A stretch of 41,690 nt of DNA, taken from contig JAIXTH010000293.1 of the NCBI GenBank assembly GCA_027484265.1, positions 1-41,690 of the forward strand, in the 5' to 3' direction. The position numbers were made by a program, and so were the translations under genes. This document shows positions 18,280 to 26,483 of this stretch, piece after piece. The stretch comes from Alphaproteobacteria bacterium (GTDB lineage Bacteria > Pseudomonadota > Alphaproteobacteria > Caulobacterales > Aquidulcibacteraceae). The notes beneath the pieces were generated by a model that was not told the origin of the DNA, made no database searches, and saw nothing but the letters and a program-made list of their open reading frames with translations. Positions within the stretch are counted from its first letter, which is position 1. The number at the start of each line of letters is the position of its first letter.

Positions 18280-21200
18280 ATGACCAATCTGAAGACACTG
18301 ACCTGTGCCGCGTCCGGCATCGCGCTGGTGGCAGCGCTGGCGCCGGGCGCCGTGCTGGCACAGCAGGCTCCGGCCGAACAGCCGGCGGCTCCGCAGGGGC
18401 GGGTCCTGGAAGAGACCGTGATCGTCACCGGCTCGTCGATCCGTCGCCGGGTCGAGAACAGCCCCTCGCCGATCCAGATCATCACCCCCGAAGAGCTGCG
18501 CCGTGACAGCATCTCGAGCCCGGAACAGTTCGTGGCCTCGCTGTCGGCCAACGTGGCCGGCATGGACAACCTCGCCGCCAATGCCGACGTGACCCCGGCC
18601 GAGAACCGCTCCAACCGGGGCGCCAGCTTCGCCAACCTGCGCGGCCAGGGGCCGGCCGGTACGCTGGTCCTGCTGAACGGTCGCCGCGTGGCGGCACACG
18701 GCATGTCGGGCGGTGCGGTCGACCTCAACCAGTTCCCGCTGGCGGCCATGACCCGGATCGAAGTCCTGAAGGACGGCGCCTCGGCGGTGTACGGCACCGA
18801 CGCGGTGGGCGGCGTGATCAACTTCATCACCCGCGACGACTATCAGGGACTGACCCTCAACCTGTTCGGCGATGCGACCCAGGAAGGCGGCGGCAATATC
18901 TATTCCGGCTCGATCCTGGCCGGCTATGGTGACATCGACACCCAAGGCTTCAACATCATGGGCGTGGTGTCCATGCGCCAGAATGAAGAGCTGCTGGCGA
19001 GTGACCGGGATTTCGTTGATGGCTATCAGGAAGACCGGGGCCTTTCGATCGACACCCGCGGCACCCCGTTCGGCACCATCTTCCCGCTGAACCAGACGAG
19101 CGGTTCGTTCGGTCCGTTCATGCCGGCTGGCGGCACGCTGCTGGGCACGACCAACGGGACGGGCGCGGCCCTCTCGCCCTTCATGCCCGGCTCGACCACC
19201 AAGCGGGCGGTCAACGGCGTGAACCCGCTGGCACTGCCGGGCGGACTGGGCTGCGGCGCGATCGCGGACATGGCCGACTATTTCGAACAGCTGTGGATCC
19301 CGGCTTCCACTTCGGCTGTGGGCGGGCCCGAAACCGCTGCTCTGGCTTGCTCCTGGGATACGGGCGAGCAGGTTTCGATCCAGCAGGAACAGGAAAGCCT
19401 GAACTACCTCGTGCGCGGTACGCTGCGCCTCGGCGAACATGAGATTGCCGCCGAGTATATGGGCTCGCAGGCGACGGCCAATAACCGCTTCTCCCACATC
19501 CAGCTGATCCCGAACTCGGCTTCCATCACCGGGCCGGCTTCGACCTCCAGCAACTTCGCCTATTTCCGCGTGCCGGGCGTGAACGAAGCGGTCTATGATC
19601 GGGTTGCCAACGCCCTGGTGGCGGCGTTCCCCACCGATACCGCACTGGCGGCGCGGCGGGCCCAGAACCTGCCGATCGCCATGCGCTGGCGCTGCCTCGA
19701 GTGCGGCCGACGGGAGCTGGAAACCGAAACCACCACCCGCCGGATCTTCCTGGGCGCTGACGGCCCCCTGGGCATCGGCGACTGGACCTACCGGACCGGG
19801 GTCTCGCAAGCGGTTTCCGAAGCCGAAACCACACTCGGCAGCGGCTACTATTACCGCAACTCGTTCACAGTGAATGGCGTCCAGCGGAACAATGGCCTCG
19901 TCCAGGTGTTCAACTCGGGTGTCCTCAATCCGTTCCTGCTGCCTGGCGAGCGCCAGTCACCGGCGGCTCTCGCGGCTCTCGAGACCGCCTCGGCCCGCGG
20001 CGTGGTGCTGTTCGGTGGCAAGTTCACCGTGACCCAGTTCGACGGTTCGGCCTCCGGCACGCTGTTCACCCTGCCGGCCGGCCCGGTGATGGCGGCTTTC
20101 GGTTTTGACTTCCGCACCGAGGAATATGAGTTCAACGGCGACCAGCGCACCGCACTGGAGCGTCCGGACATCCTCGGCGCCCCCTTCGATCAGGCCAACG
20201 TGCTGTCGGGCGTGAGCCGCGACGTGAAGGCGGTCTATGCCGAACTGCTGATCCCGGTCTTCACCGACTTTGAACTGACGCTGGCGGTGCGGACCGACGA
20301 GTATGACGGCTTTGGCCGGACCACCAACCCGAAGGTGGCGTTCCGCTACAAGGTCAATGACCTGCTGATGTTCCGCGGCTCGTACAACACCGGCTTCCGG
20401 GTGCCGTCGTTCAACCAGATCTACAACGGCGTGACCGACAGCGGCCTGAGCCTCGGCCAGCCGTTGGTGGATCCGTTCAGCTGTCCGTCGCTGGTGTCGT
20501 CCGCAGAACCGGGCTGCGCCAATATCCTGCTGCAGGGCACTCCGCCTGTGGACCGCACGGGCGGCAACCTTGGACTGGGACCGGAAGAGTCCGAGCAGGT
20601 CGGGTTCGGCGTGGTGATGAACTTCGCCCGCAACATGTCGATCCAGCTCGACTGGTGGCGGATCGAGCGGACCGGGACCATCGGCACCCTGTCGCTGGCC
20701 AACCTGTATGCCAATGCGCAGTTCTTCCCGGAGCGGTTCGTCCGCAATGCCGCCGGCCAGATCGTCGTAATCGACCGCCGGATCGCCAATATCGGTGGCA
20801 ACAAGGCCGAGGGTCTCGACATCTCGGTCCGCAACAATGGCGAGATCTGGGGTGGTCGCTGGAGCGCGGCTCTGGACGGTACCTACTCGATCGACCGCCG
20901 CGAGCAACTGTTGCCGTCGCTGCCCTACGGGCCGGATCAGGTGGGGCAATTCACCCTGTTCCGCGATCTGACGCTCGGCTGGCGCCACACCGCCTCGGTG
21001 AACTTCACCCGTGGTGACTGGAGCTTCTCGCTCAGCCAGCTGTTCCGGTCGAGCTATCTGGACAACTTCACCTATCCGGGCCTGGTGTCGGGTGCGGTGC
21101 AGGCCCCGAACCTGAAGCGTCGGGTTCCGGCCTATATCCTGTACAACACCTCGGTGACTTACCGCGGAATCGATGGCCTGCGGGTGACCGCCGGTGTCCG

Positions 21201-24062: not shown

Positions 24063-24941
24063 ATGGACTTCGTTCCGTTTGACGATCGCGACGGCTGGAT
24101 CTGGCTTGATGGGAGCTTCGTGCCCTGGCGCGATGCCAAGATCCACGTCCTCACCCACGGCCTGCATTATGGCTCGTGCGTGTTCGAGGGCGAACGGGCC
24201 TATGGCGGCAGGGTGTTCGAAACCGAGTGGCATGCCCGCCGCCTGATGCGCTCGGCCGAGCTTCTGGGCATGACCCCGACGTTTGGCGTGGACGACATCG
24301 TGGCCGCGAAGGCCGAGGCGATGGCCCGCAATGGCTTCGAGGACTGCTACGTCCGCGCCTTCCTGTGGCGGGGCAGCGAAATGATGGGCGTGTCGGCCCA
24401 GCAGAGCCGGATCCGCGCCTGCGTGGCGGCATGGCAGTGGGGCAGCTATTTCCAGGACAAGATGGCAGGCATCCGCCTGACCCACGCCAAGTGGCGCCGT
24501 CCCAGCCCGGAGACGATCCCCTCGGAAGCGAAGGCCGCCGGCCTCTACATGATCTGCACGCTCTCCAAGCATGCCGCCGAGGATGCCGGCTATGCCGATG
24601 CCCTGATGCTGGATTATCGCGGACATGTGGCCGAGTGCACCGGTGCCAATGTGTTCTTCGTGCGCGGCCGCGAGATCCACACCCCGGTGGCCGACTGCTT
24701 CCTCAACGGCATCACCCGCCAGACCGTGATCCGGCTGGCGCGCGAGCGTGGCTATGAGGTGATCGAGCGCACCATCATGCCCGAGGAGCTGGGTGGCTTC
24801 CAGGAGATGTTCATTACCGGAAGTGCCGCCGAAGTGACCCCGGTGAAGGAACTGGGCGACATCATGTACCAGCCTGGCCGCGCCTGCGAGGAGCTGATGC
24901 ACGCCTATGCCGACCTGGTCCGCGGCAAGATATCCGCCTGA
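24063..24941 (+). CDS. ilvE: Branched-chain amino-acid aminotransferase (class IV PLP)
   Basis: A 292-residue PLP enzyme that interconverts branched-chain amino acids and their 2-oxo acids. ATG 24063 has AAGGA upstream. Family marks: LTHGLHYGSCVFEGERAYGG near the N-terminus, the PLP lysine K157 in IPSEAKAAGLYM, ADALMLDYRGHVAECTGANV, and FITGSAAEVTPVKEL near the C-terminus. D-amino-acid transaminase-like fold; branched-chain substrate preference is the common annotation and not proven. It is divergent from marR. Confidence 0.92.
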   Translation: MDFVPFDDRDGWIWLDGSFVPWRDAKIHVLTHGLHYGSCVFEGERAYGGRVFETEWHARRLMRSAELLGMTPTFGVDDIVAAKAEAMARNGFEDCYVRAFLWRGSEMMGVSAQQSRIRACVAAWQWGSYFQDKMAGIRLTHAKWRRPSPETIPSEAKAAGLYMICTLSKHAAEDAGYADALMLDYRGHVAECTGANVFFVRGREIHTPVADCFLNGITRQTVIRLARERGYEVIERTIMPEELGGFQEMFITGSAAEVTPVKELGDIMYQPGRACEELMHAYADLVRGKISA

Positions 24942-24968
24942 GCGGACGGCACAACGGCTGAAGGACTT

Positions 24969-25319
24969 GGAGCGCAGCTGCTTGCAGCTGCGGCAGCGAC
25001 GCAGAGCGGCGCTGCCGCATACGCAAAACACTGGTTTCAGAGCGCTTCGTGCGACGCAGCTGCAAGCAGCCGCGCTCCAGCAGTTCGCTCCGTGGTTGGC
25101 GGTGAGCGGTGGCGGGCCTCCGCCCGCCTTGCGGCCCGGTCAAGGCCGCGCGCATCGGCTGGATCGCTGGACCGCGCGGCTCCGGCCGCGCATCGCCCCC
25201 ACCATGGGCGCGGCAGGAGCCGCGCGGTCCAGCGGGGCCGTCTGCGACCAAAGCCGGACAACAGGTCTGCGCGGCCTCCACCGCAAACCCTCGAGCGCAG
25301 CTGCAAGCAGCTGCGCTCC
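24969..25319. repeat. Nested inverted-repeat cluster between convergent genes
   Basis: The outer arms are a perfect 23-bp inverted repeat: 24969-24991 (GGAGCGCAGCTGC then TTGCAGCTGC) and 25297-25319. A third, 22/23-identical copy is at 25056-25078 in the same orientation as the right arm. The right arm also forms its own hairpin (25293-25318, 11-bp stem, CAAG loop). Further hairpins: GCGGCAGCG (24990-24998) with CGCTGCCGC (25010-25018); GGCGGGC (25111-25117) with GCCCGCC (25122-25128); and a perfect 18-bp pair 25166-25183 with 25216-25233. No coding frame is convincing. It lies between the 3' ends of ilvE and glpX, typical of REP/BIME elements; a small MITE is an alternative, but no target-site duplication is seen. 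Confidence 0.85.
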
Positions 25320-25356
25320 AGGTGATCGAAGGGCCCCGCCCTCCAACTGAAATCAA

Positions 25357-26313
25357 TCAGGCCAGGTGCGTCGTGCGGATCACACGCGCGGTGCGGGCTT
25401 CCGAATCCAGCACCAGCGTCTCGGTGATCGTGGTAGCGCCCGAGACCTGCACGCCGCGGACCAGCGCACCGTTCGTCACACCGGCAGCGGCGAACACAAC
25501 GTCGGTGGAGACAAGCTCGGCGAGGTCATACTTGCGGCCAAGGTCGGTGATGCCTGCGCGGGCGGCGCGGGCCTTCTCGTCGTCATTGCGGAACACCAGC
25601 CGGCCCTGGAACTGGCCGCCCACACAGCGCAGCGCTGCCGCTGCGAGCACGCCCTCCGGCGCGCCGCCCTGGCCGAGATAGAGGTCGATGCCCGTGGAGG
25701 GATCGGTGGTGTAGATCACCCCGGCCACGTCGCCGTCGCTGATCAGATGCACCCGGGCGCCAACGGCCCGCAGATCCTCGATGATGGCGGCATGGCGTGG
25801 CCGGTCCAGCACGCACACCCCGATTTGGCCGGGCTCCACACCCTTGGCCTTCGCCAGCGCCTTCACATTCTCGGACGGGCTGGCATCGAGATCCACGATC
25901 CCGGCGGGCAGACCCGGGCCAACGGCGATCTTGTCCATATAGGTGTCGGGCGCATGCAGGAGGCCGCCGCGCGGCGCGATCGCCAGCACGCACAGCGCGT
26001 TGGCCATCGCCTTGGCCGTGAGCGTGGTGCCTTCCAGCGGGTCGAGTGCGATATCGAAGGCCGCACCCGTGCCGGTGCCGACTTCCTCGCCGATGAACAG
26101 CATCGGCGCCTCGTCGCGCTCGCCTTCGCCGATCACGATCCGGCCCTGCATCGCGATGCGGTTGAGAGCGGTGCGCATAGCGTCGACGGCCACCTGGTCG
26201 GCAGCCTTTTCGTCACCGCGCCCGGCCATGCGGGCGGAGGCGATGGCAGCAGCTTCGACGGCAGCAACAGCGCCGGCGGAAATCTCGAACGGCAGAGCAC
26301 GCGAACTTGACAT
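25357..26313 (-). CDS. glpX: Class II fructose-1,6-bisphosphatase
   Basis: A 318-residue phosphatase of gluconeogenesis that removes the 1-phosphate of fructose 1,6-bisphosphate. The ATG at 26313 has GAGGG upstream. Motifs: RIVIGEGERDEAPMLFIGEE, the metal-binding ALDPLEGTTLTAKAMANALC, DLYLGQGGAPEGVLAAAALR. Length and motifs are normal for GlpX. It is divergent from the J-domain gene. Confidence 0.96.
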   Translation of the reverse strand: MSSSRALPFEISAGAVAAVEAAAIASARMAGRGDEKAADQVAVDAMRTALNRIAMQGRIVIGEGERDEAPMLFIGEEVGTGTGAAFDIALDPLEGTTLTAKAMANALCVLAIAPRGGLLHAPDTYMDKIAVGPGLPAGIVDLDASPSENVKALAKAKGVEPGQIGVCVLDRPRHAAIIEDLRAVGARVHLISDGDVAGVIYTTDPSTGIDLYLGQGGAPEGVLAAAALRCVGGQFQGRLVFRNDDEKARAARAGITDLGRKYDLAELVSTDVVFAAAGVTNGALVRGVQVSGATTITETLVLDSEARTARVIRTTHLA

Positions 26314-26483
26314 GGGACAGCCCTCAGACGGGATGATGCAGACCGGTTGCCTGCCTAGCCGGTCAGGGCCGCCAGCGGGAGCCCTACAACTGTCAAACCG
26401 CACTGCAACACACAGGCTTGTGCGCGCGCGGGGCTGTCAGCTGTTGCCAGCAGCGGTGGCGCAGCCCATCTGTGCCACGCGTC

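Follow-up and report, generated by a model that had tools for sequence, protein, structure and literature searches.

The REPs and BIMEs described by Nunvar et al. 2010 (PMC2817692) consist of a short head followed by a GC-rich palindrome interrupted by 2-4 nt, are extragenic, occur in around or above 100 copies in alternating orientation with complementary changes, and flank a RAYT gene. The canonical REP is defined by the 5' head GTAG or GTGG (PMC6006769), and W94 and Q95 of the transposase have been named in GTAG recognition (PMC6006769). REPINs (Bertels and Rainey 2011, PMC3116915) are inverted REP doublets of fixed length which fold into one long hairpin, in which compensatory changes are common and which form clusters close to the RAYT gene. 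In E. coli and in Stenotrophomonas the dinucleotide that is cut is CT (PMC8266576, PMC3116915). Short palindromic repeats are also common in alphaproteobacteria in the form of CGTC-tagged repeats (Di Nocera et al. 2013, PMC3733652).

We analyzed an intergenic region within a stretch of 41,690 nucleotides (the window) from a draft alphaproteobacterial genome of 3,065,071 bases in 326 contigs, 87% complete, whose host is termed Hyphomonadaceae-like solely from its best named aminotransferase matches. The repeats of this region share with those of Nunvar et al. the build, copy number, arrangement, complementary changes and flanking of a RAYT gene, with which BIMEs are here directly associated. 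Their heads differ from GTAG/GTGG: sampled copies carry GGAG (A type) or GGAC (B type), a one- or two-letter departure, and they are therefore classed with the RAYT-associated REPs, as a form with a variant head, and kept apart from the canonical GT[AG]G REPs. Doublet lengths and folds agree with the REPIN form, at 112 bp and 64 bp where GI of SBW25 was reported with a 71 bp spacing. Unlike the CGTC-tagged repeats, these have GGAG/GGAC heads and a RAYT link, and are without the CGTC tag. A literature search returned no paper joining RAYT with Hyphomonas, or RAYT with REPIN and Alphaproteobacteria. Taken together, copy number, fixed doublets, extragenic siting, compensation, a RAYT gene bracketed by A units and the pattern across the family identify a BIME/REPIN cluster, and we conclude, at a probability of about 94%, that the region is a bacterial interspersed mosaic element in which an A-type REPIN, a B-type REPIN and a lone A-type REP share a convergent-gene gap.

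Architecture of the repeat cluster

The cluster lies between an aminotransferase gene and a glpX gene which converge upon it, ending at 24941 and 25357 respectively (Table 1), in agreement with the siting proposed by the first-pass annotation. It comprises three A-REPs and two B-REPs in the order A+ A- (linker hairpin) B+ B- A-, four of which pair up as an A doublet of 112 bp and a B doublet of 64 bp, leaving one A on its own. An A-REP is built of a TGGA(G) head and the hairpin GCGCAGCTGC-TT-GCAGCTGCGC, and a B-REP of TGGACC followed by GCGCGGC-TCCN-GCCGCGC.

Table 1. Features of the repeat cluster and its flanking genes (window coordinates)
Feature	Position	Strand	Remarks
Class IV aminotransferase (branched-chain aminotransferase type), flanking gene	24063..24941	+	PF01063
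Whole BIME/REPIN cluster, five REPs	24967..25321	.	intergenic gap; 355 bp
A-type REP unit 1, head TGGA(G), hairpin CGCAGCTGC-TT-GCAGCTGCG	24968..24992	+	variant head CTTGGA, not CTGGA
A-doublet spacer CAGCGACGC..GCGGCGCT...GCTTCGTGC	24993..25053	.	resembles spacers of other copies
A-type REP unit 2, inverted relative to unit 1, minus-strand reading CTGGAGCGCGGCTGCTTGCAGCTGCGT	25054..25080	-	units 1 and 2 form the 112-bp doublet (REPIN)
Extra hairpin GGCGGGC-CTCC-GCCCGCC, linker between A and B doublets	25111..25128	.	neighboring sequence (query 131-187) also present in relative G003
B-type REP unit 1, TGGACC + GCGCGGC-TCCG-GCCGCGC	25168..25191	+	found by unit search
B-type REP unit 2, inverted	25208..25231	-	with B unit 1 forms the 64-bp doublet
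A-type REP unit 3, single, minus-strand reading CTGGAGCGCAGCTGCTTGCAGCTGCGC	25295..25321	-	headed matches and stem comparison
glpX-type fructose-1,6-bisphosphatase, flanking gene, convergent	25357..26403	-	PF03320

The three copies of a 23-bp word noted in the first pass were all recovered, and each is one oriented A-REP unit: GAGCGCAGCTGCTTGCAGCTGCG at 24970-24992, its exact inverted match at 25296-25318, and a further inverted copy that agrees at 22/23 positions (25055-25077). The arms extend further at 96% identity, over 28 nt between 24965-24992 and 25296-25323 and over 25 nt between 24968-24992 and 25055-25079. The inner inverted pair, reported as perfect over 18 bp, is present with an uninterrupted length of 19 bp; it spans 27 nt at 96% (25165-25191 and 25208-25234) and corresponds to the two oriented B-REPs. 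Of the five REPs, four have CT immediately 5' of the GGAG/GGAC head and the other has CTT. Other copies of the A element, of about 115-135 bp, showed 75-86% identity. A possible third repeat module is the linker that separates the A doublet from the B doublet; window positions 25072-25128 (GTGGTTGGCGGTGARCGGTGG plus the hairpin) were 82% identical to a segment of a genome of another genus (L061, G003:C409:3132-3188).

Copy number and siting of the units in the host genome

Whole-genome pattern counts were combined with positional statistics from the window and 40 further stretches (459 kb in total) chosen for holding repeats. The A hairpin gave 96 forward and 98 reverse matches, with 0 and 2 in the controls, which corresponds to about 97 sites since the hairpin is palindromic; 76 strict headed A matches were counted. 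At three or fewer mismatches 139 B units were found (control 0), and the element as a whole had 144 local matches. Within the sampled stretches, 34/51 A units and 50/60 B units lay in head-out inverted pairs, the opposite arrangement being seen once for A and never for B. Doublet length was fixed, at exactly 112 bp for 11 of 17 A doublets (the modal length) and exactly 64 bp for 24 of 25 B doublets, in each case that of the window doublet.

Stems of the A units varied by compensation (AGC/GCT, AGT/ACT, TGC/GCA, AGG/CCT, CGC/GCG and ATG/CAT), and with no selection on the right arm 38/45 were fully paired, compared with a mean of 18 and a maximum of 27 on shuffling. These compensatory changes bear on the mobile MITE which had been suggested in the first pass. 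The REPIN form is indeed MITE-like, and the inverted ends, length of about 115 bp and high copy number would suit a classical MITE, one that descends from a DDE-type insertion sequence and has terminal inverted repeats of 23-28 bp together with target-site duplications. Here, however, both ends are themselves hairpins, and the compensatory changes fall within a single arm, which allows the left and right arms of one copy to diverge (GCAGTTGC..GCAACTGC on the left, GCAGCTGC..GCAGCTGC on the right); the enzyme associated with such ends is of the HUH Y1 class instead of the DDE class. Among the copies examined, none belonged to a DDE insertion sequence sharing these ends. A DDE-type MITE is a very improbable explanation of the cluster.

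A non-coding or regulatory RNA gene would also display covariation and strong secondary structure, but the units are dispersed genome-wide in both orientations, no promoter-like site was found in the region, and no Rfam family came near its gathering score. We regard an RNA gene as highly improbable; a described RNA family was rejected, the Rfam look-alikes being weak and below gathering scores.

Although 84% of the sampled sequence is coding, none of 107 units fell within a gene predicted by a simple home-made codon-usage script (0/50 A, 0/57 B). For the 36 A units with genes predicted on both sides, the neighbors were convergent in 16 cases, co-directional in 16 and divergent in 4, a further 14 A units being located at contig ends. 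The 16 convergent cases, together with the placement of the cluster itself and folds of the region far beyond chance as single strands (z = -6.5, -9.0 and -4.3), accord with a structured element retained for stopping transcription in both directions, or for stabilizing mRNA 3' ends, at the aminotransferase and glpX genes. The stop had been offered in the first pass and found no support as an intrinsic terminator: there were 0 terminator-like sites in the region, where the hairpins stand without a T-run, and an intrinsic terminator was accordingly rejected. Nor does such a function account for about 100 copies beside unrelated genes, co-directional and divergent ones among them, for the exact doublet lengths, or for the link to a RAYT, and we consider it unlikely. 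The observed high copy number, short dispersed palindrome, extragenic siting, alternating arrangement and complementary mutations are those which characterize REPs and BIMEs.

Contig ends carried 33/57 of the sampled B units (e.g. L004, L006-L008, L014, L018 and L025), from which we infer that the repeats probably broke the assembly.

RAYT genes and flanking REPs in the host and its family

A search of the host genome with Pfam PF01797 returned no RAYT. This was a false negative, as a profile built from twelve RAYTs of family genomes detected one locus (G000:C158:19602-20036, E 2.8e-28), encoding a protein of 168 aa at C158:19584-20090 (L057:1688-2194). Its scores lie below the curated cut-offs both of Pfam (18.6 vs 23) and of the NCBIfam REP-associated tyrosine transposase model REP_Tyr_transpos (64.9 bits vs 80, E 6.9e-18). 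The best solved relative is E. coli TnpAREP (PDB 4er8; PMC8266576; E 1.3e-5), with which the protein shares the HxH motif and residues aligned with Y115, N119 and R104, as counted by hand on the alignment. It differs in having F and E where the E. coli enzyme has W94 and Q95, substitutions which are in keeping with a non-GTAG head.

The RAYT gene is bracketed by two nearly identical A doublets at C158:19393-19504 and 20103-20214. Within the 87%-complete host genome the RAYT was flanked by A-type REPs only, and none was found flanked by B-type REPs; assembly gaps could conceal a RAYT associated with B units. Because the repeats match the ends of a RAYT gene elsewhere in the genome, they can be regarded as an ordinary new member of the REP/REPIN mobile repeats. 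The BIME-type reading of the first-pass annotation was thus right, with about 100 copies of each unit and a RAYT flanked by the same units, and the genome-wide copy count and RAYT search which it had proposed as checks exclude a single-copy sequence in a genome with no transposase.

Of 60 family genomes, 27 contained Y1 transposase genes. Among 50 RAYT-like loci, 34 had matched hairpins headed by GGA[GC] on both sides, compared with 0/353 control segments, and the aminotransferase loci of named relatives were without matching REP pairs. Among the 60 genomes the A units were private to the host, with the exception of one poorly paired match in G006. B-like units were found at low copy number in 11 other genomes. 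B-like stems flanked the RAYTs of G052, G054 and G038, and that of G062 on one side. The nearest relatives by glpX, G003 (81%) and G005 (80%), both belong to other genera, and the RAYT of G003 is flanked by CTGGAGC-headed hairpins with another stem. No empty site was seen at the junction of the aminotransferase and glpX genes, which were not neighbors in 80 named relatives, nor in 19 relatives with a glpX match.

Two further loci were recorded. In G006, GGACACTTCCATTTT hairpins of a different head and stem class flank a Y1 transposase gene that belongs to another subgroup (L145, G006:C1, 63-98, 1306-1339 and 2141-2174). In G054, a tandem array of mixed GGAG- and GGAC-headed REPs with a 73-bp period adjoins a RAYT gene, and two REP stems alternate within it (L160, G054:C9).

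Proposed spread of the repeats and its meaning

The REPs were most likely spread by the C158 RAYT of the host, a single-domain HUH tyrosine transposase (RAYT/TnpAREP). It is as inverted pairs, themselves non-autonomous, that the REPs multiplied, and those of the cluster accumulated in the gap between the two convergent genes. By analogy with described systems, the RAYT would recognize the head and hairpin as exposed single-stranded DNA (as in PMC8266576 and PMC3116915), cut beside the REP at a nearby dinucleotide and rejoin the DNA elsewhere. The CT before the head in the window units is suggestive only as the cut dinucleotide. Mobility of the REPs is presumed in this scheme, as is movement of the B units by the same RAYT. 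More tentatively, RAYTs and REPs of this family may have shifted jointly from a GTAG/GTGG guide to GGA[G/C], with one surviving RAYT maintaining both the A and B families; we consider this possible but rather doubtful. If it were true, head recognition and its co-evolution would be directly testable.

These data add a well-populated REP/RAYT system with a non-canonical head in a Hyphomonadaceae-like alphaproteobacterium, and the repeats suggest a reason for the break-up of the draft into its many contigs. The 34 natural RAYT-REP pairs, from one family and with varied stems and heads, are useful material on how RAYTs choose their REPs.
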